A stretch of 64,000 nt of DNA from Simmondsia chinensis (lineage: Eukaryota; Streptophyta; Magnoliopsida; Caryophyllales; Simmondsiaceae): NCBI GenBank assembly GCA_018398585.1, contig JAGTTD010000008.1, positions 28,759,208 through 28,823,207 of the forward strand, written 5' to 3'. Made by a program: the position numbers and the translations under genes. The notes below the pieces were generated by a model that had not been told where the DNA came from, searched no databases, and was given only the letters and a program-made list of their open reading frames with translations. This document shows, piece after piece, positions 12,280-57,852 of this stretch; positions within the stretch are counted from its first letter, which is position 1, and every line of letters begins with the position of its first letter.

Positions 12280-13545
12280 GAGTAATTCCTGTGGTGATCA
12301 CGAGTAATTCCTATGGTGATAACCGGTAATTCAAGTGGTGATCATTGGTAATTCCTGAGGTGATCATGAGTGATTCCTCTGATGATCATGAGTAATTCAT
12401 GTGGTGACTGCGGGTATTGATGTGGTGGATGTAAGTAATTCCTATGGTGATCACGGGTAATTCCTGTGGTGACCGTGGATATTTCCTGGGGTAACCGTGG
12501 GTGACTCCTGTGGTGATCGCGGGTAATTCCTTTGCTAATTGCAGGTAATTCCAAAAGTGATTGCAGGTAATTGTTTTTGCAATCGCGGGTAATTCTTGTG
12601 GTTTTCGTAGGTAATTCCCGTGGTAATCATGGGTAATTCTAGTGGCGACTACAAGTAATTCCTGTGTTGATCGCGTTTAATTTCTTTGGTGATTATGTGT
12701 AATTTCTATGGTGATTGTGGGTAATTTCTCTTATGATCGCAGGTAATTTAAGTGGGTGATCGCAGGTAATCCTTATGATGATAGTGAGTAATTCAAGTGG
12801 TGATTGCGAGTAATTCTTGTGGTGAGTAAATCCTATAGCGATTGCAGGTAATTCAAGTAGTGATCATAAGTAATTCAAGTGGTGATCGCTGATAATTCTT
12901 GTGGTGACCGCAGGTAATTCCTATGGTGATATTGAGTAATTCAAGTGGTGACCGCAAGTAATTCCTGTGATGATCGTGGGTAAATCCTGTGGTGATTGCA
13001 GGTAATTGAAGTAGTGATCATGGGTAATTCCATTATTGATTGCAAGTAATTTAAGAGGTGATCACGAGTAACTCCTAAGGTGATTGTGGGTAATTCTAGT
13101 GGTGATCGCGGGTAATTGATATGGTTATGGCAGGTAATTGATGTAGTGAAAATGAGTAATACTAGTGATGGTCATGGGTAATTCCTTTGGTGACTGCGGG
13201 TAATTCAAGTAGTGATCACAGGTAATACCTGTGATGATTGCAGATAATTTAAGCAATGATGGCTAGTAATTCTTGTTGTGATCGCTAGTAATTCCTATAG
13301 TGATCACGAGTAATTCAACTGATGATCACATATAAATCCCATGGGATCACAGGTAACTCCTAGAGTGATCACAAGTAATTATCGTGATATTTATAGGTAA
13401 TTAGTATAGTGATTAGATGTAATTCATGTGATGATCACTAATGAACTTATTGGCCGTTTGCGGATAATTCTTGTGATGATCATAATTAATTTTCATGGTG
13501 ATCACATGTAGCTCCTATGATGATCATAGACTCATGTAGCGATAC
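12280..13545. repeat. 22-bp minisatellite, about 57 degenerate units
   Basis: The stretch is a head-to-tail array with core GTAATTCCTGTGGTGATC followed by a variable NCNG/A tail, period 22 bp. Units vary mostly at CTGTGG (also AAGTGG, CTATGG) and at the tail (ATCGCG, ATCACG, ATCATG, ATTGCA). The tail variants are those expected from decay of methylated CpG to TpG/CpA. The array has no long open frame and no spacer-like diversity. Confidence 0.93.
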
Positions 13546-24966: not shown

Positions 24967-26557
24967 TTACAGCAAGGCTATGAATGATGTTTCCTGCATT
25001 GCCTTGTTCATAGCCCTCACTCCCATAATCCTACAGCTCTTCACCTGATTTCCTTGCAGCCTCCTCTTCTTATTTTCAAAAAAGAATTCCATGGTAAGAT
25101 CCTTGAAGTTACATTTGATATCTCCCAAAGTAGACAGCCATTCTACACCCAATACCATGTCACATCCCCCTAAGGGTATCAACATGAAATCAGCACTATA
25201 AGTGTACCCTTGCATCTTCCAAACTAACCCTTCACATCTTGCGTTGCACACAAGTCTACTCGCATCAGCCACGGTTATAGTCTGAGGTGTTGTTGTCAAC
25301 AATGTGCTCCCCAACTTCGATGCTAATGCAGCATCCAAAAAATTATGTGTGGAGCCTGAATCCACTAGTATGTGTAGGGCCCTCTTACCACTGAATCCAG
25401 TCACTCTCAGGGTTTGAAAATGCTGATCACCCGAGAGGGCATGGAAAGAAATATGAGCAGTGTTTTCTCCCTCAACTTCACCTTCTGGACCTTCCTCAGC
25501 AACATCTGGAGGTTCTTCTTCTATGTCCTCTTCCACTTCAATAACAAAGAGCTGTGGAGTTTTAGATTTGCATCTGTGACCTGGTTCAAATCTCTCATCA
25601 CAGAAGTAACATAGTCCTTTGGCTCGTCTCTCTTGCAGATCAGTTCTGTTCATTGTTTTATGGCCTCTGTTTGCACCAGATGGGCCAGCCCCTTCCCTCC
25701 AAGCATTCTGCCTTCCAGGTCCTCCCCGGTTGTGACTAAGGTGAGGTTTCGTGTTCACTGGAGTGGGGAGAAGGGCAGGTCGGGTAGGTCTGAACTGCTT
25801 GGACAGAGCCTCTATCTTGGCTTCTGCTAGTTTGGCTAAACACACGGCCTGTTGTAAATTAAGGGGTTGGCTAGCTCAAACATCCATCTCTATGTCCCTT
25901 CTCAAATCAGTTAACATGCAACTCACAAGTTAGTTTTCGTTAAGATCGACTCCAACAGCTATGGCATCAAACTTTGCCAGATAATCTGTAACCGAACCCT
26001 CCTACCTCAGATTCATCAATTCTGACACAGGATCTTCATAGGGGTTCCCAAACCTATTTTGTAAAGCTCGCACATATTCCTCCCAACTGGGTAGGAACTC
26101 AGTATATCTGTTTCTCATTAAACGTTGATGCCATTGTAAATCCAATCCCCTAAGGTGCATTGTGGCTAGTTTCAATTTATCATTAACAAGAGTATTATCT
26201 ATTGTGAAGAATTGGTCACACAGATACAGCCATTCGTTCAAGTTCTCCCCATAAAATAGAGGGAGTTCAATTTTTCTAGAGGAATAAGCATTGTTACCCA
26301 GTGGTCTAGCTTGCTACTGGTCAGGGACCGCTGCGTTTTGAGCCACCTGAGCCTGAACCCCGGTTGCTGTCGAATCTCTATCAGCAGTCCTAACCTGCTG
26401 TAGAGGGATCCCAGTCATCCATTCCCTCAATGATAAGATTGAAGCCTGCAGTTCAGCTGATGAATGTTCCCTCGATTGAACTATGGCCGCCTGGAGTTCA
26501 GCTGATGTTCGATCCATCCTTTCGTTTGCTACTTGTATTTGTGCGGTGAGGGTCTCT
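24967..26557 (-). pseudogene. Element C gag-protease, distal part
   Basis: Open pieces 26517-26314, 26241-26002 and 25845-24967. They show gag capsid phrases (MNEWLYLCDQFFTIDNT, HLRGLDLQWHQRLM, RFGNPYEDPVSELMNL), a Pro/Arg-rich linker, a zinc-knuckle-like CYFCDERFEPGHRCK, an acidic spacer, then the protease (LHILVDSGSTHNFLDA with intact D-S-G, ITVADASRLV, CDMVLGVEWLSTLG). A few stops between pieces inactivate it. The first codons lie across element D at 30372-30420. Confidence 0.92.
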
Positions 26558-27117
26558 TGTCACGATCCTTGACCGTGACCTTGCACCCGACAACTGTCAC
26601 AACCCGAGGAAGTCGATGTCACGATCCTTGACCGAGACCTTGCACCCGACAACTGTCACAACCCGAGGAAGTCGAGCAGCTAATTTCTTGCTTTTGATTT
26701 TTTGTAATTTTGCAACAATTATGTAATGTAAAAATATAGAATTAGTTAAGTACAAAAATTTAGTTTGAATTTTGAAAGTAGGTGGGAAGGGCCGGTATTG
26801 AGGAAGAAAAGGGAGGCAAAGGGTAAATTCAAATTGTGATGATGTAAAGCTATGTACTAGGTCTAAACCCCTTCCCTCCATTTTTGTCTATTTAAACACT
26901 TGTATGATGTCTTTTGAATTATCAATGAAAATTAACAAACTTTACCTCTTATCTCTCTCTCTCCCTAACCGTCTCCCTCTCTCCCTTCTAATTCTATCTT
27001 CTTCTCCCTTCTAACTCTTCTAATTTCCCCTCTAATTCTACTCTCTTCTTCTAACTCTCATCTAATCTCCCTTCTATCTCAAAATTCTATCCGAGTCACG
27101 GGCCTAGGGTCGTGACA
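26558..27117 (+). repeat. 5' LTR of element D
   Basis: 560 bp. It begins with a 59-bp unit present twice in tandem (26558-26616 and 26617-26675, differing at one base, ACCGTGACC versus ACCGAGACC). A TATTTAAACA element near 26890, followed by CT-rich DNA, suggests promoter and R/U5 regions. The LTR ends ...GGGTCGTGACA. Confidence 0.93.
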
Positions 27118-27120
27118 AAG

Positions 27121-27132
27121 TGGTATCAGAGC
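27121..27132 (+). other. primer-binding site of element D (tRNA-Met)
   Basis: TGGTATCAGAGC, three bases after the LTR, matches the plant initiator tRNA-Met complement at all 12 positions. Confidence 0.93.
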
Positions 27133-27193
27133 CATCTTCCGATCGAAGAGGGCTTATCCTATCCTTACTTTCCTCATTCGGTTAAAACCGAAT

Positions 27194-27194
<1 letters not shown>

Positions 27195-27226
<32 letters not shown>
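27195..27226 (+). repeat. 32-base A run in the leader of element D
   Basis: Uninterrupted A tract between the primer site and the gag ATG. It may be slippage-prone or mark an old poly(A) insertion. Confidence 0.9.
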
Positions 27227-27227
<1 letters not shown>

Positions 27228-27243
27228 GGCTATAACAAGAAGC

Positions 27244-29826
27244 ATGTCCTCAACCGGTCACACCGATACCAACGAGTGGGTCGACGCCGTTGATGATTGG
27301 ATGGTCCGTTTGGAGGAAAGGATGGACCGACTGGAGGAGCAACAAAACCGAAACAACCTCGAGATAAGAGTAGACATGGCGGACGTAAAGGCTGACCTGA
27401 GGGCCCTAACCGATGCCGTGGGTCGGTTGGTGAAGGCCCAAGAAAAGAGGACCGAGGTGGAGACCGTGGCACCTACCATGGGAGGCCGTGACAATGCCGC
27501 ACCAGGGGGGTCAGGCACGTACCCGAGGTCCGGCAATGGGATCCTACCGCCTCCAATGCACTCTTCAGAATTCCGACACAACCCGGCCCCACCGAGAGTC
27601 ACGGATGAAGGGGACCTTAACCGAAGCCACGGAAGCAACCGCACCTGGACCTTCCATGCGCCCAAGCTCGAGATCCCGAAATTTGAAGGTACGAACCCGA
27701 GAGCCTGGATCCGTAAGTGCCTTAAGTACTTTCGTTGGTACCAAGTGCCCGAAACCGAGTGGGTTGAATATGCTTCAAGCCACCTTCATGAACCCGGGGA
27801 CATTTGGTTCCACGGGCTAGAGCTTAGACACCCTCACATGAGGTGGACCTTTTTTATGGATGAATTGTGCAAACGTTTTGGGGACCGATCACTCCAAGAC
27901 ATAGTAGAGGAGTTTAGCAAGATGTCGCAAAACGGGCCGGTTGAAGATTATATTTTGAAATTTGAAGAATTAAAGAGTTGGATGCTTATCCATCACCCGA
28001 CATTGAGCGAGACATACTTTGTCTCCAGCTTTATTAGCGGACTTAAGCCCGCCATTCGAGCATCCGTCAAGGCAAGCCGGCCGACCGAGCTTAGCACGGC
28101 CTTTGAACAGGCCAAACTCCAAGAAGTTGCGGTAGCCGAAATCAGGAATGCTGCCCGGCCTGTCAACCAACCCAGTTTCAGCGCCAGGCCTGTCCCCAGC
28201 AGCCGACCAGTGCCCCCGGCAGCACCCCAGGGCTGGCCCCAGTCCCACGGGCCCGTGTCCAAGACCAGCAGCGGCAGCAACCCGGGTCCCAGCGCGCCGA
28301 GACGAGAGCCGGGCCAATGTTACAAGTGCCATGAAAAATACTTTCCGGGGCACGTTTGTAAGAAGGCCTTACATAGTATGGAAGGAGAAGAGGTCGAAGA
28401 CGAAGCCCAAGAAGAGGAGGTTGCAGGTACAGAGCAAACCGAAGAAGAAGACAATGGAGCTATGGAGGTTTCTCTAAATGCACTTTCGGGCCGAGTCACG
28501 CACAACACCTTGAGGTTGAAGGGCCTGATTAAGAAGCGAGAGGTAAAAATCTTGATCGATAGCGGGTCCACTAATAGCTTCCTAGATGTTAATGTGGTCC
28601 GGGAGCTTCAGCTCGAAACCGTACCCACCGTCGTCATGACCGTAACAGTGGCAAACGGGGAGAGCCTCGTTAGTTATCAGAAATGCCCGGGCGTAAGGTG
28701 GAAAGTCCAAGGCACAACGTTCGTTGATAACTTGAGGGTATTGGAACTCCGGGGCAGTGACATGGTCCTTGGGGTTGATTGGCTCCAACGATATGGGCCC
28801 GTAACGATTGACTTCACCAACCTCAAGTTCGCTTGCTTCAAAGAGGGTAAGGCAGTCCACTTACAAGGCACATCCGAGAAAGCCGCCTTACAATCAATTT
28901 CGGGTAAAGGCCTCCCCAAGCTCTTCAAGAAAGCCGGACATCTGTTGGGTCACCTCTTTATGGCTACCGCCGAGGAGGCCTCCGAGTCCGTCATTCATCC
29001 GAAGATAGAACGCACCCTCAACCGAATCGTCATGGACCCACAAGAATCTACGCTCATTGTCCAAATGTGGGACCTCCTCTATCCCGTTACCAAAGACATC
29101 CTCTACCAAGTATTCTTCCCCTATGGCCGCCGTGAAAAGATAAAGATTAACTCGACATCGACCTATAAGGGTGATGCTCTAGCGACCTTTACCTCGAGGG
29201 AAGAAGCCGCCATCGCACGCAAGAGCTTAAACAAAAGAACGGGTAAGTCAACCGGGGATGGGAACCATGGCTTGGCTCGTTTACCTCCGGAAGGGTTGGA
29301 CAAGGCAACGCATCCGCACCAAGTGGAGCAGCCTGAATCAAGCCCAAAGGCACCCGAGCTCACTCAGGGTGCGCAGCCGTGCGCACCACTTGCATTAGGA
29401 TGCGCTTCGCCTCCACATACCAGCGCCCACCATGCGCCACGCCTGGACTCCATGGTGCAGCACATGTCATGGACACAGCCAACTGAAGCGCAGCGACAGC
29501 GTGGTGAGTTTGCTCAGCCCGGACCCACGCAGCAGCAGCAGCAGCAGCGGCAGGGTGCGCGCAGGAGGTCAAACCAAGGCATGAACAAAGAAAATAGGGA
29601 AGTGCCGATTTGGGGACGTTTTCCTAGAACCAGAATTGGCACTAAGGGATCAACCCACCAAGCTCAACTTGGGACAGAGGATCTTAAGGACAAGACTTAT
29701 CCGTATGAGCCAGGGATAAGAATGAAGATACTAAGCGGACGAGAACCGAAGGACAAAGGCGGCGCATACCACTCATCCTTGAGGACAAGGATGCTTTCAA
29801 GGGGAAGGGTTTGTCACGATCCTTGA
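27244..29826 (+). CDS. Element D polyprotein: gag - zinc knuckle - aspartic protease - PTB-like RRM - Q/P-rich tail
   Basis: Start chosen at the first ATG after the A run (MSSTGHTDTNEWVDAVDDW); 860 residues. Residues about 18-75 form a predicted coiled coil (RLEERMDRLEEQQ). About 140-300 are gag capsid (RAWIRKCLKYFRWYQVPE, IWFHGLELRHPHMRW, YILKFEELKSWM). C359-C362-H370-C372 form a knuckle (CYKCHEKYFPGHVC). The protease follows, with ILIDSGSTNSFLD (Asp 439) and SDMVLGVDWL. After the usual spacer (HPKIERTLNRI), the RT is missing: from Met 597 the frame continues as an RNA-recognition motif with LLYPVTKDILYQVFFPYG, EKIKI and GDALATF, closely matching the pattern of polypyrimidine-tract-binding protein RRM2. 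The tail holds a Q6 run and basic stretches, and ends inside the 3' LTR. The frame is open throughout, so it may be expressed. RNA binding is inferred. Confidence 0.9.
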   Translation: MSSTGHTDTNEWVDAVDDWMVRLEERMDRLEEQQNRNNLEIRVDMADVKADLRALTDAVGRLVKAQEKRTEVETVAPTMGGRDNAAPGGSGTYPRSGNGILPPPMHSSEFRHNPAPPRVTDEGDLNRSHGSNRTWTFHAPKLEIPKFEGTNPRAWIRKCLKYFRWYQVPETEWVEYASSHLHEPGDIWFHGLELRHPHMRWTFFMDELCKRFGDRSLQDIVEEFSKMSQNGPVEDYILKFEELKSWMLIHHPTLSETYFVSSFISGLKPAIRASVKASRPTELSTAFEQAKLQEVAVAEIRNAARPVNQPSFSARPVPSSRPVPPAAPQGWPQSHGPVSKTSSGSNPGPSAPRREPGQCYKCHEKYFPGHVCKKALHSMEGEEVEDEAQEEEVAGTEQTEEEDNGAMEVSLNALSGRVTHNTLRLKGLIKKREVKILIDSGSTNSFLDVNVVRELQLETVPTVVMTVTVANGESLVSYQKCPGVRWKVQGTTFVDNLRVLELRGSDMVLGVDWLQRYGPVTIDFTNLKFACFKEGKAVHLQGTSEKAALQSISGKGLPKLFKKAGHLLGHLFMATAEEASESVIHPKIERTLNRIVMDPQESTLIVQMWDLLYPVTKDILYQVFFPYGRREKIKINSTSTYKGDALATFTSREEAAIARKSLNKRTGKSTGDGNHGLARLPPEGLDKATHPHQVEQPESSPKAPELTQGAQPCAPLALGCASPPHTSAHHAPRLDSMVQHMSWTQPTEAQRQRGEFAQPGPTQQQQQQRQGARRRSNQGMNKENREVPIWGRFPRTRIGTKGSTHQAQLGTEDLKDKTYPYEPGIRMKILSGREPKDKGGAYHSSLRTRMLSRGRVCHDP

Positions 29827-30371
29827 CCGTGACCTTGCACCCGACAACTGTCACAACCCGAGGAAGTCGATGTCACGATCCTTGACCGAGACCTTGCACC
29901 CGACAACTGTCACAACCCGAGGAAGTCGAGCAGCTAATTTCTTGCTTTTGATTTTTTGTAATTTTGCAACAATTATGTAATGTAAAAATATAGAATTAGT
30001 TAAATACAAAAATTTAGTTTGAATTTTGAAAGTAGGTGGGAAGGGCCGGTATTGAGGAAGAAAAGGGAGGCAAAGGGTAAATTCAAATTGTGATGATGTA
30101 AAGCTATGTACTAGGTCTAAACCCCTTCCCTCCATTTTTGTCTATTTAAACACTTGTATGATGTCTTTTGAATTATCAATGAAAATTAACAAACTTTACC
30201 TCTTATCTCTCTCTCTCCCTAACCGTCTCCCTCTCTCCCTTCTAATTCTATCTTCTTCTCCCTTCTAACTCTTCTAATTTCCCCTCTAATTCTACTCTCT
30301 TCTTCTAACTCTCATCTAATCTCCCTTCTATCTCAAAATTCTATCCGAGTCACGGGCCTAGGGTCGTGACA
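29812..30371 (+). repeat. 3' LTR of element D
   Basis: 560 bp, identical to the 5' LTR except one G/A difference near 30004 (TTAAATAC versus TTAAGTAC). Contains the same 59-bp tandem pair. Confidence 0.93.
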
Positions 30372-30420
30372 TCTCTTCCACCCTCCTAATCTCAGCTACC
30401 GATCTGGTATTGTCAGCCAT
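30372..30420 (-). pseudogene. Element C gag start, cut off by element D
   Basis: On the minus strand the ATG at 30420-30418 follows the primer site and opens 16 codons of gag before element D. The frame would continue at 26557 if D and one TSD copy were absent, so D broke a gag start that was still in frame. Confidence 0.8.
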
Positions 30421-33273: not shown

Positions 33274-35698
33274 ATGGCACACAACGCATCTTCGTCTAGA
33301 GCCGGTCGTTCTAGTTCTAGCTCTTATTGACCACCTAAAGTACCTAAGAGGGGTAGAGTTGTTGAACTTGATACTGATGAACGAGCATTTTTAGAGCTAG
33401 ACCCATCACCTCCATTCACTGACACCATAGATTGGGACCTCCAACAACAATAGTATTACAACGATCAGGGTTTTTCTGAGTCGGGTGGTGGTGGTGGGGA
33501 CTCACAGACTAAAGAGGAACCCACACCCAACACCGAACCCCAGCCCGCAAGAAGTAGTACTAGTAGGCGTAGTACTAGTGGGGTATGGAAGCACTTCAAC
33601 TTAGATAGGAATAATAATAATGTGATTTGTACATTATGTGACCCACCCAAGCCCTTTAGTCATCCACCGGGTGTTGGGACAGACACTTTAACTAGACATA
33701 TAATTAGGTGCCACCCCGAACAAGACCCAGATAGAGCCCAACAATGTTTAGTATAGCAAGCGACCGGCGCGCTTGCTAACTTTAGGTTCTTCCAAGAAAC
33801 TAATAGATAGGCACTAGCTAAATATTTAATTATGTCTGAAAAGCCTTTTACCACCGGTGAAGACCCTGGTTTCGTGGAGTATCTCCAAACAGGGGTGAAC
33901 CCCGCCATCGTAAGGGTTCCTCGGAACACTGTAAAGCGGGACACGTTTAAAGCTTACAATAAGATGAAAACTACCAAAGACGGCACAAACACTCCGTCAC
34001 CGGATCCCATGAGAACTCCGAAGTTAAGCGTGCTTGGGCGAGAGTAGTACCAGGATGGGTGACCTCCTAGGAAGTTCTCACCCTCAAGTTGGGGGCACTG
34101 GGAAACAGTCTCTCTTCAGGTTAACACCCTGAAGGGGGAAGGCCGCGTACATCCGCGCCCCCCCCCCCCCCCTCCCCCGATCCTGCGTAGGCGAGAGCCC
34201 TTTAGGCACTGGGTATGTTCCTTAATAAGATGAAAACTGAGGTTTTCGAAATCCGGTGTGCCTTACTTGTGCGTAACGGCACACTGGATCAATTCCATTT
34301 TCACCATTCAAAAATGAATAATCCATTTTGCATATTTAGATTTCCCCACATTGCCGACATAATCACGGGTGCGATTATGGAGGCAGTCCGCGGGTGGGGG
34401 ATAGAGCGTCGTATTTTTAATATCACGGTCGACAACGACTAGTAATAATGCATCCGTTAAACAACTAAGTAGGCCTATGAAACCCGTGTTAGGTGGGCGA
34501 TGTTTTCATTTATGTTGCATCTGTCATATATTGCATTTAAGAGTGATGGATGGTTTAAGTCTGATAAACGCTTCTCTTTCTACCTTAAGAGATGTAACAA
34601 TAGCAATAAAATCATTCGGAACTAGAAAGCGAAGATTTAAACTTCTCTGTACGACGCATGGGTTAGAGTATAAACAATTTAAATTAGACATACCAACTAG
34701 GTGGTCATCAACCGTAAAAATGTTAGAGCGCATACTTCTATATAAGGATGTCCTAGTGGAATTTGTATAGAATACTCGTTAAGATTTAAGTAATTATAAT
34801 CTGAACGATGTACACTGGGACACGATTAATGAAATTTGTAAATTTTTTACCATTTTTAGAGACGCTACCAACTTTTTTTCCGGTTGCTATTATCCGACCA
34901 TACCACAAGCAATATCTAGATTGATTGATATTGTATCTTGGATGTCGGAAAATGAATCGAACCCCGTGTTGACTGAATCGATTAAAGCAATGAAAACCAA
35001 GTTTTATAAATATTATTCTGAACTACCCCTTACATACTGTTTTGCCACTATTTTGGATCCCCGTTGTAAACTCACGGATTTGAACTTGTTTGTCAAATAT
35101 TTTTATGAAAAATTAAAATATGAATTCAATACAGAAAAATTCATTGTGCAAGTCGATTCAGACCTACACACTTTATTTTCTCATTATTCTCAGAGATTAT
35201 CATCTGATAATCTATATGTTACTCCTACTATAGTTGGATCTTCCACATCTACTGGAAGTAGTGCACACTCGTCGATTGCGTGCAAGTTGTTGGGCCAATT
35301 AACGCCCACACAAACTTTCACGTCATGTGACGAGTTAGATTACTATATGCGGATGCTGCTAATCCAGTTTTTCCTGACACCGGCAAATCCGCAATTTGAT
35401 ATTTTAAAATGGTGGTATACAAATCAAACCCAGTATCATGTGCTTTTCCACCATGGCACGTGATATACTAATGTGTCTGGTGTCTTCAGTAGCATCAGAG
35501 TGTGCTTTTAGTCTTGGCGGCAGGTTTCTTAGAACGAAGAGGGTGAAGCTATCACCATCCAACTTGGAGATGCCCGTGTGCCTAAAGGACTGGATGCGCG
35601 CTGAGGCTAAGGGCCAAAACATAATGAGGCTGGGTTCATCGAGCGAGGATGAAGATGACCTCACTACCTATACGTCCGATGGCGGCACAACAATATGA
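33274..35698 (+). pseudogene. hAT transposase (BED zinc finger and hAT dimerisation domain)
   Basis: The frame from ATG 33274 has in-frame stops (e.g. near 33330, 33452, 33756, 33810). It encodes a Ser/Arg-rich start, a BED-type finger (VICTLCDPP ... TRHIIRCHPE), and a linker up to MKT at 33972, where a SINE is inserted. After the SINE it continues with transposase core pieces (34215-34442, 34477-34770, 34921-35463) including SATILDPRCKL-type sequence (YCFATILDPRCKLTDLN). In the frame at 35438-35698 it has the dimerisation signature ARDILMCLVSSVASECAFS ... RTKRVKLSPSNLE. Such transposases cut and paste their element as dimers. Multiple lesions make it inactive. Confidence 0.92.
33973..34223 (+). 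mobile_element. 5S-rRNA-headed SINE, copy 2, inserted in hAT transposase
   Basis: Flanked by a perfect 15-bp target duplication AATAAGATGAAAACT (33958-33972, 34224-34238). The head matches plant 5S rRNA very closely from CACCGGATCCCAT onward (GAGAACTCCGAAGTTAAGCG, GGATGGGTGACCTCCTAGG), keeping the internal A-box (about 34021-34037), intermediate element and C box (about 34052-34076). The body matches copies 1 and 3 and contains a run of about 17 C near 34164. It ends GCACTGGGTATGTTCCTT without an A tail. It is the best-preserved copy. Confidence 0.93.
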
Positions 35699-56439: not shown

Positions 56440-57785
56440 TTACTGAGAAAAAGGTTCTCTCAACATATATTGGTACACGTCAGCAGCAGAAGTGGGGACC
56501 ACAAGCATAACTTTTACACCCACCTCCTTTTCATTACACGTGGGCAACACCAAACAGTACCTATCCACAAGTATTGGGCCTACATGGGCTGGTTTTCCAA
56601 GCCCTATATCCACTCTATCCAGCCCAAGCCTCGACCACTGAGACAGTATTACTACCCCAACCCAGTCCGGACCGGCCCGGTTCACGCTCACTATCTCCGT
56701 TACTTCCCCACGTAACGACCGTCAATTCTTTCCTTTGCCTTTCTTATCAAACTCGCCGCATACCCGACCCCTTTCTCTGTCAACTCCTTACCGGTCGTTA
56801 AAGCACACCCCAGTACGAACCCGTTTCCGTAGAACCCAGATGGTAAACCGGGTTTGACTCGGTTCCGGATATTGACACTGAAAAGTAATTTAACGGTTTG
56901 GTTTGATGGGATATTTAGGGCCCTAGCCCAACTTCTCCATACATGGGCCGAGATGAGCTCGAAAGTAGTGTACTTGGGCCCATTGGGATGACCGGATTGG
57001 CTCAATGGGCCTAGCTGGTTGATTTGGGATTTGGAAAAGGTGTTTGAAGTTGGGGTAAGTGGTTCGGTTACGAATAGGGATATAAACCGGCATCGATCCT
57101 TGACCTGGGTGAATTCCGGGTGGTTCACGGGTTGGGTCGGGGTGGATACTTGGTCGAGTAAATTTCGGTCCCAGACCGGTTTGGGACCCAAAATGGATAA
57201 CCCGCGGGTCAACTCAGAGAGATAATTAAGAAACTGAGCACTTCCAATACCGTCGCATACACAATGGTTAAAGCCAACCCCTAAGGCTGCGCCGCCATCG
57301 GAAAGCCACGTCAGCTGGAGAATCACGAGTGGTCCCCCTTTAAGAACATCCACCATGTGGAACCATAAAAGTTGTCTCCATTCATCCACGTGTAGTGGGG
57401 CCCGCTCGAAGTCTGCTAGCTTGTACTCTGATACTGCTTCAACAAAGAGTGCACCTTGACCATTGCAGATTACCTGAAGGCGACCAGACCCGGATGGGTT
57501 GGGCCTGACCCGGCCGGCGAGAGGGTAGTAGGGGACTAAGGCCCGGCCCAAGGAGGACTTTAAATGGACGGAGAGAAGGCCAGAGTCAAGGGGAGGAGGA
57601 GAAGTATAAAGAATGAGATATTCGATGGAGAAGCGGAGAAAGGGTTGGGAGTCGAGGGAGGAGAGAGAGAGGATGGAAGATGGAGTGGGGAGAGAAGGGG
57701 GAATTACAATGGCTTCTTTGATTTGAACCAACTTGTTATTGTTATTGTTATTATTATTATTATGATTATTGATGATATTTTTCAT
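56440..57785 (-). pseudogene. BAHD (HXXXD-type) acyltransferase, one-base frameshift
   Basis: BAHD enzymes transfer acyl groups from acyl-CoA to alcohols or amines in the cytosol. The first part (57785-56700, 361 codons, no intron) has the family start (VQIKEAIVIPP, ILSLSSLDSQPFLRF), YYPLAGRVRP, and the catalytic HCVCDG with His174 and Asp178; it ends prematurely at TAA. The rest of the family C-terminus is in the next frame (56691-56440): VVILSQWSRLGLDRVDIGLG, where the structural DFGWG is DIGLG, then KPAHVGPI and the C-terminus. A single missing G in GTGGGGAAG near 56705 explains the break; together the parts make about 445 residues, the usual length. The N-terminus has a 9-Asn run. Substrate unknown. 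It could be a true pseudogene or a base-calling error. Confidence 0.9.
57740..57785 (-). repeat. AAT/AAC repeat encoding Asn run at BAHD N-terminus
   Basis: Trinucleotide repeat giving HNNNNNNNNNK just after the start codon. Length variation here would change only the tail ahead of the conserved fold. Confidence 0.8.
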
Positions 57786-57852
57786 GTTATCACTTGGAAG
57801 AAGAGGAAGAAGAAGATGAAGCAGAAGAATTTACAGGGTTTTCTTTTTAATA

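Follow-up and report, generated by a model that had tools for sequence, protein, structure and literature searches.

A PTB3-type RNA-recognition motif in small LTR retrotransposons of Simmondsia chinensis, and its truncated form in a gag-protease recombinant

The window, a stretch of 64,000 nucleotides from Simmondsia chinensis (contig JAGTTD010000008.1, positions 28,759,208 to 28,823,207), contains a long terminal repeat (LTR) retrotransposon, here called element D, in which a gag-knuckle-protease frame runs into a segment resembling an RNA-recognition motif (RRM). A copy of the second RRM (RRM2) of the polypyrimidine-tract-binding protein PTB3 is a gene of small non-autonomous LTR retrotransposons of this genome, which belong to a large clan of repeats; it occurs there in many copies and bears a signature of purifying selection. 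Element D is a recombinant of one of these with an autonomous relative. The explanation that we favour, with moderate confidence, combines these points with a protein that mainly docks a host partner.

An earlier note on this DNA, made from its letters alone, had described gag, knuckle, protease and an RRM-like segment in one frame from which pol is missing, and this description is confirmed. The frame is open over 860 amino acids from an ATG at 27244, within a stop-free stretch from 27055 to 29826, and Pfam places RRM_8 in it above the cut-off. Of the set gag, protease, reverse transcriptase, RNase H and integrase, the Pfam scan of the frame finds the capsid and the protease only and no polymerase domain. 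D has the near-identical LTRs, TG...CA ends, 5-bp target-site duplication, primer-binding site and polypurine tract of an LTR retrotransposon (Table 1), and lacks the pol domains of an autonomous Ty3/gypsy element. The primer-binding site at 27121 is presumably of the initiator-tRNA-Met type.

The RRM_8 (PF11835) match covers residues 601-665 of the D frame (E 1.8e-8; 34.9 bits, cut-off 26.2), and the excised segment alone scores better (2.5e-10). RRM_1, the Pfam profile that the earlier note had proposed as a check, just meets its cut-off at exactly 20.7 bits. The proposed PTB-type RRM2 identity holds as well. The profile of element RRMs scores 72-75 bits on PTB3 RRM2 and less than 7 bits on RRM1, 3 and 4 (rows for 6 of 120 proteins), a relationship specific to RRM2, and the best match of one small-element RRM in the PDB is RRM2 of human PTB1 (3.3e-9). 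On RRM_8, each of the six frames tested from small elements reaches 66-75 bits and covers 76-80 of the 89 positions. The domain of D is not a complete RRM fold and ends after the second helix. D-type copies lack, at the repeat AACAAAAG, 34 RRM codons that are kept in the small elements, so that the last strand and the equivalent of Tyr247 are gone.

Structure prediction gave no confident RRM fold for the D segment. AlphaFold returned an all-helical model from the single sequence (pLDDT 53), which was discarded, and a strand-helix-strand-strand-helix order, again at low confidence (pLDDT 53), when 36 PTB3 sequences were supplied. A fold search with the latter model found nothing at E ≤ 0.001 and a mixture of ferredoxin-like folds and RRMs below that level; it is not used as evidence, and structure prediction does not establish the fold of D's own segment. 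A protein search with the RRM words of D gave 111 candidates, none at E ≤ 10, which says little about absence, given how few words PTBs have in common with D and how often the proteins of transposable elements go unannotated. Taken alone, the threshold RRM_1 score and the low AlphaFold confidence of D would suit a chance resemblance to an RRM, or else an ordinary spacer of gypsy elements. The spacer was sought in 41 gag-protease relatives. Their full-length alignments to D end at or before residue 612, and neither D residues 571-700 searched alone nor the profile of element RRMs matches any of them. With no counterpart in these relatives, the look-alike or spacer reading is refuted by the RRM2-specific profile match and by RRM_8 in all six small-element frames, and its probability is negligible.

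The genome search covered the window's own assembly (831 Mb); 150 of 2,071 candidates were scored, and all 150 are matches, 122 of them stop-free within the match by our own count. Thirty, D included, span query residue 1 to 103 or 104 and so share both the gag-protease/RRM junction and the deletion, in agreement with the earlier expectation of a junction common to many copies. The remaining scored matches cover the RRM part only. The codon pattern for QVFxPYG, counted irrespective of surrounding LTRs, has 566 matches in the genome and its reversed pattern 16. Many of the motif matches shown read CAAGTATTTTGGCCTTATGG (QVFWPYG), a subgroup outside the translated RRM rows.

Twenty RRM-only loci were fetched with their flanks, and a direct-repeat pair bounds the RRM in 17 of them. 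Thirteen of these bounded elements are 2.0-2.5 kb long with LTRs of about 490-640 bp, two are 4.8 kb long with LTRs of 776-875 bp, and two more are tandem arrays. The repeat-pair script found none at L010, L011 and L028; two of these three, L010 and L011, are arrays too. The ends, primer-binding site and polypurine tract of the small elements are similar to those of D, and several also have A-runs (lysine runs where in frame) upstream of the RRM, as D does. No gag or pol similarity lies inside the small elements in the rows examined; the gag/pol matches at L018, L019 and L023 fall outside the RRM element by their coordinates, with a 7-base overlap in L019. In 17 of 21 loci the two LTRs share at least 95% identity, which indicates young copies.

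Several loci depart from this plan. In the two 4.8-kb elements, L024 and L027, the primer-binding site is far from the RRM frame, and the long region that separates them shows no similarity to the gag-pol relatives. L009, L010, L011 and L023 (on C8, C8, C10 and C22) are head-to-tail tandem arrays of 3-6 RRM units with periods of about 1.6-1.9 kb. Arrays L009 and L023 are flanked as wholes by the 5-bp repeats CCTTA and CCTCC, so they either were inserted as concatemers or expanded later. The RRMs of L074, L077, L081, L083 and L087 resemble, by eye, family A or B in their first part and the L025 type in their last, a pattern that suggests recombination among families.

A donor-type gene, which the earlier note had suggested looking for, is present in the genome: the host PTB3 gene lies on C4, and its RRM2 is spread over four exons, with introns inside the domain. 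The element RRMs align over this RRM2 and keep its docking tyrosines. They differ from it in being 33-56% identical (20 chosen element RRMs), in having most RNA contacts replaced and in lacking introns; D lacks the last strand as well. Being continuous between the LTRs, the element copies have the form of a captured host gene, and capture of a spliced mRNA is the simple reading of their difference from the four-exon host domain. In a tree of 33 rows, a branch with support 94/94, present in all 200 bootstrap trees, separates the 20 element RRMs from PTB3. The segment is a descendant of RRM2 of plant PTB3.

For 14 of the 20, similarity to host PTB3 exceeds the average over nine other PTB3s, a difference clearest for L043 (56 vs 48%), L035 (52 vs 45%), L038 (54 vs 47%) and L041 (49 vs 42%); D and L017 tie, and L011, L012, L022 and L031 go in the opposite direction. 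A donor within this plant's lineage or close to it is thereby suggested, though not proved. The deep-branching families L036/L040 and L043/L044 represent two insertions, each of which recurs with identical flanks at a second place, and have CATTC or TATTG as flanking repeats. Their LTRs are of another kind, about 300-470 bp long, beginning TGTTATG or TGTCATG and ending CATAACA, and give only short matches, up to 119 bp, to the LTR group of D. L042, which the tree places closer to the derived families, has a TGTCACG LTR. At least one change of LTR type thus seems to have occurred in the history of the RRM gene.

The earlier note had proposed that D captured a host RRM. Instead, the complete RRM sits in the small LTR elements, and DNA comparison identifies D as a recombinant of one of them with an autonomous, chromovirus-like relative that contributed gag-protease and most of the LTR. 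The search with the gag-protease of D gave 74 scored matches, of which 26 lie in frames of at least 1,500 amino acids (our own count), and six of those 26 matches are interrupted by a stop. The D region is 90-95% identical to autonomous frames of 1,500-1,600 amino acids in the same genome. Pieces of two autonomous copies were read; the translation of one leads from protease into reverse transcriptase. The translated end of the autonomous relative resembles, by eye, a chromodomain; D itself has no pol. D matches the autonomous DNA at 91-92% up to 29024 and six family-A RRM elements at 89-92% from 29013 onwards, leaving a 12-bp overlap, CACCCTCAACCG. Positions 97-560 of its LTR are 95.5% identical to the LTR of one autonomous copy and 85% to that of the other, and its first 37 bp resemble the LTR starts of RRM elements. 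The chimeras L031 and L032, more distant from D, have RRM-element LTRs that are 90-96% identical to L015 and L018. Since the LTR of D is mostly of the autonomous type, the two kinds recombined on more than one occasion. For such chimeras, a switch of template between co-packaged RNAs has been described as a route (review PMC13317346).

The leader, RRM and tail common to D and the small family-A elements could also have arisen the other way round, had D taken its RRM from a host transcript and later spawned the small elements through loss of gag-protease. The 34 codons missing from D-type copies are nevertheless still present in the small elements, which contradicts capture by D itself; families that have fuller RRMs and different LTRs fall outside the D/family-A group in the tree; and the gag-protease of D is close to that of present autonomous elements. 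Such a descent of the small elements from D is very improbable. At L061 and L062 (C4:30959610-30963857), two D-type copies 3 kb apart, the first 200 or so bases of the compared protease region are unlike D, and the remainder is 89-99% identical to it (profile shown for L061).

Constraint on the frame was estimated as the ratio of nonsynonymous to synonymous differences (pN/pS) from Nei-Gojobori counts summed over pairs, with the off-frames as control and intervals from codon bootstraps, which are rough because the pairs are not independent. The complete RRM gives 0.35 (0.20-0.61) in family A (15 copies) and 0.34 (0.21-0.57) in family B (11 copies), with off-frame ratios of 0.72-1.20. Forty chosen complete-RRM copies give 0.49 (0.38-0.61). 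This set omits 13 of the 53 RRM-only rows (L010 repeat units, the other L011 units, L023, L077 and L079; eight with stops), and restoring all 46 distinct rows, the eight with stops included, shifts the ratio to 0.50 (0.39-0.61), with off-frames at 0.89 and 1.18. In these counts the complete RRM carries the signature of purifying selection.

The truncated RRM of D-type copies gives 1.41 (0.62-6.65) in 10 copies and 1.06 (0.50-3.09) in 28; the larger set excludes L061 and L062, part of whose protease region is unaligned, and the ratio is 1.02 with both included. The D-type RRM looks unconstrained, and its contrast with the complete RRMs is suggestive, its interval overlapping those of the other families; one off-frame at 0.41 (0.20-0.91) is a warning on so short a stretch. 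For the gag and protease of D-type copies (1,509 nt, 10 copies) pN/pS is 0.31 (0.21-0.44). Constraint throughout this region was not upheld, as the protease part alone gives 0.68 (0.36-1.40) in 28 copies. Downstream of the RRM, D-type copies are near-neutral, as are those of family B (0.77), and family A is constrained (0.44).

These ratios bear on whether the RRM is a mere passenger, a captured fragment amplified by good LTR ends and signals whose frames are open through youth alone. The youth of the copies, the passenger-like behaviour of the D-type RRM and the near-neutral post-RRM region of D-type and family-B copies would all fit. Against this stand the in-frame constraint in families A and B and across all rows, extending past the RRM in family A, and the retention of the domain across diverged families and two LTR types. 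The passenger reading is disfavoured, and we regard it as improbable.

What the complete RRM might do is suggested by the residues that it keeps. In human PTB, Raver1 docks on the helical face of RRM2 around Tyr193 and Tyr247, and Y247Q abolishes Raver1 binding and spares RNA binding (PMC3420021). The RNA contacts of PTB RRM2 include I214, F216, L225, S258, L260, L263, K266, Y267 and K271, and K218 is also implicated by mutation (PMC10342978). Both faces were counted over 56 element rows without the D-type deletion; denominators vary by position, and positions past 256 rest on the host row, as the human piece ends there. The helical docking pocket is kept in these elements (Tyr193 in 54/56, Leu241 in 49/53, Tyr247 in 53/56), as is the plant Arg at 244 in 56/56; Tyr247 is missing in D. 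The CU-rich RNA contacts of host PTB3 are for the most part not retained: Phe216 is kept in 0/56, Lys218 in 0/54, Leu225 in 18/56, Ser258 in 0/50, Leu260 in 1/47, Leu263 in 14/48 and Tyr267 in 0/47. Positions identical between human PTB1 and host PTB3 are kept in 932 of 1,059 cells in helix 1, helix 2 and the following loop, and in 164 of 670 cells in strands 2 and 3, where Ile213 (53/56) and Ala224 (56/56) are nonetheless kept.

From this pattern we infer that the RRM is a protein-docking accessory gene. The Gag-linked RNA binding that the earlier note had put forward is disfavoured, the RRM of D being truncated with a pN/pS near 1 and most RNA-contact residues being replaced in its complete relatives. 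A broader form of that idea, in which the RRM is an RNA-binding accessory of altered specificity that acts on element RNA in packaging, translation or export, and is tethered to Gag in D, has some points in its favour. The domain is an RRM, contact 214 and in part Arg271 are kept as set out below, and retroelement proteins commonly bind RNA; LINE-1 ORF1p, too, has an RRM. We consider it unlikely all the same, in view of the lost contacts listed above and of D, whose domain has no last strand and shows no detectable selection.

Several observations weigh against the docking explanation. RNA contact 214 is Ile or Val in 18/18 rows and host Arg271 is kept in 15/43, and these could leave the domain some affinity for RNA; the sheet might also have acquired a new specificity. 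The conserved docking residues might be kept for folding. Family C (5 copies) gives a pN/pS of 0.59 (0.29-1.40), not distinguishable from 1. The docking motif [S/G][I/L]LGxxP is absent from D, the 41 gag-protease relatives and the RRM frames tested, so no partner is named. Mutants of human PTB at Tyr193, Leu241 or Gln244 were without effect in a splicing assay, in which only Tyr247 mattered (PMC3420021). Finally, trans-mobilisation, for which the similar ends and the chimeras with the autonomous relative are indirect signs, and template switching are both inferred from element structure. The family-B frames L010, L019, L020 and L021 contain [N/T]LLGPEP, near the Raver1-type motif except in the first residue, possibly by coincidence.

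In the favoured explanation, a spliced PTB3 mRNA, from this plant's lineage or one close to it, would have been the source of the RRM, the small elements would be moved in trans by the Gag-Pol of autonomous relatives, and chimeras would arise by template switching between co-packaged RNAs. The least certain step is that the complete RRM protein would work chiefly by way of the helical face on which PTB RRM2 docks cofactor peptides, and would recruit or compete for a host PTB partner instead of binding CU-rich RNA as PTB does. The step helped might be export, translation or escape from RNA processing. D would have gained its partner's gag, lost part of the RRM and let the remainder decay. A bolder version, offered as a tentative possibility that we would not expect to hold in full, is that several hundred LTR elements live on a stolen PTB cofactor-docking domain, with the groove kept and the RNA face discarded, that the domain moved between two unrelated LTR backbones with a change of helpers, that PTB3 partners are competed for or hijacked, and that in gag-gaining recombinants, D among them, the domain has become dispensable and is decaying.

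A host fragment captured by an LTR element may be no more than a passenger. An abundant domain with a signature of selection, retained through LTR replacement, makes it testable whether non-autonomous retrotransposons keep accessory genes; the kept docking residues, set against the lost RNA contacts, point to the activity worth testing first, and D with its 29 sister copies is a natural control in which a helper gag was gained and the domain truncated. Short non-autonomous LTR elements without pol that are presumed to be moved in trans, as the small RRM elements would be, include TR-GAG, TRIM and LARD. They are not known to carry a selected host RRM frame.

The presence of PF11835, now named RRM_8 in Pfam, in plant LTR elements is already in print, though unnamed as such. 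A 2013 survey of LTR-captured genes in rice and sorghum lists, in a figure legend, PF11835 (then DUF3355) and PF00076 among the most frequent domains, with PF11835 over-represented; it falls outside the four domains shared by the two species and so belongs to one of them (PMC3726574). As here, the domain lies in genes within LTR retrotransposons, but the survey's passages on it give it as an unknown domain only, without element family, PTB origin, selection or chimera. Within the open-licence literature, DUF3355 and retrotransposons came up together in PMC3726574 only. In the same literature, judged by titles and the starts of abstracts, neither an RRM within a plant LTR element nor the PTB origin, selection or chimeras of PF11835 in such elements was found to be described. 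Maize Bs1 resembles D as an LTR element whose chimeric frame includes coding sequence of host origin, and differs in the genes captured (review PMC13317346). BARE-2, which consists of BARE-1 elements with a Wis-2-derived part of the LTR acquired via abnormal template switching, resembles D as an LTR mosaic of two families; unlike the case of D, the passage on it mentions no captured host domain (PMC13317346).

Table 1. Features of element D, in window positions.
Feature	Position	Strand	Basis
Element D (LTR retrotransposon)	26558-30371	+	LTRs, target-site duplication, primer-binding site, polypurine tract
Left target-site duplication TCTCT	26553-26557	.	flank comparison
Right target-site duplication TCTCT	30372-30376	.	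flank comparison
5' LTR, 560 bp	26558-27117	+	1 mismatch vs 3' LTR
3' LTR, 560 bp	29812-30371	+	1 mismatch vs 5' LTR
Primer-binding site TGGTATCAGAGC	27121-27132	+	read from sequence
A-run between primer-binding site and ATG	27195-27226	+	read from sequence
Open frame, 860 aa: gag-knuckle-protease-truncated RRM	27244-29823	+	open reading frame, ATG at 27244
Ty3-type capsid region	27739-28125	+	Pfam Ty3_capsid, residues 166-294
Zinc knuckle CYKCHEKYFPGHVC	28318-28359	+	by eye; no Pfam match
Retroviral aspartic protease domain	28525-28797	+	Pfam, residues 428-518
Breakpoint, 12-bp overlap, autonomous-like upstream and RRM-element-like downstream	29013-29024	+	DNA comparison
Truncated PTB-type RRM2, 64 aa, strand 1 to helix 2	29047-29238	+	Pfam, alignment, model
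Deletion scar AACAAAAG, 34 codons of small RRM elements absent	29230-29237	+	alignment
Tail from small RRM element, within the 860-aa frame	29239-29811	+	DNA comparison
Polypurine tract AAGGGGAAGGG	29799-29809	+	read from sequence

Each LTR of D opens with a 59-bp tandem duplication, 98% identical (26558-26675 and 29812-29929). D is nested in a minus-strand gypsy element, whose reverse transcriptase and gag-protease frames lie immediately to its left. Elsewhere, the window contains a tandem array of 47 copies of a 22-bp unit with 66% matches (12282-13316) and a plus-strand fragment of a hAT transposase (34783-35460; hAT-like_RNase-H, 1.6e-12). On the minus strand, a frame of 376 amino acids with a Transferase family domain (56703-57830; PF02458, 3e-61) is probably an ordinary plant acyltransferase gene.

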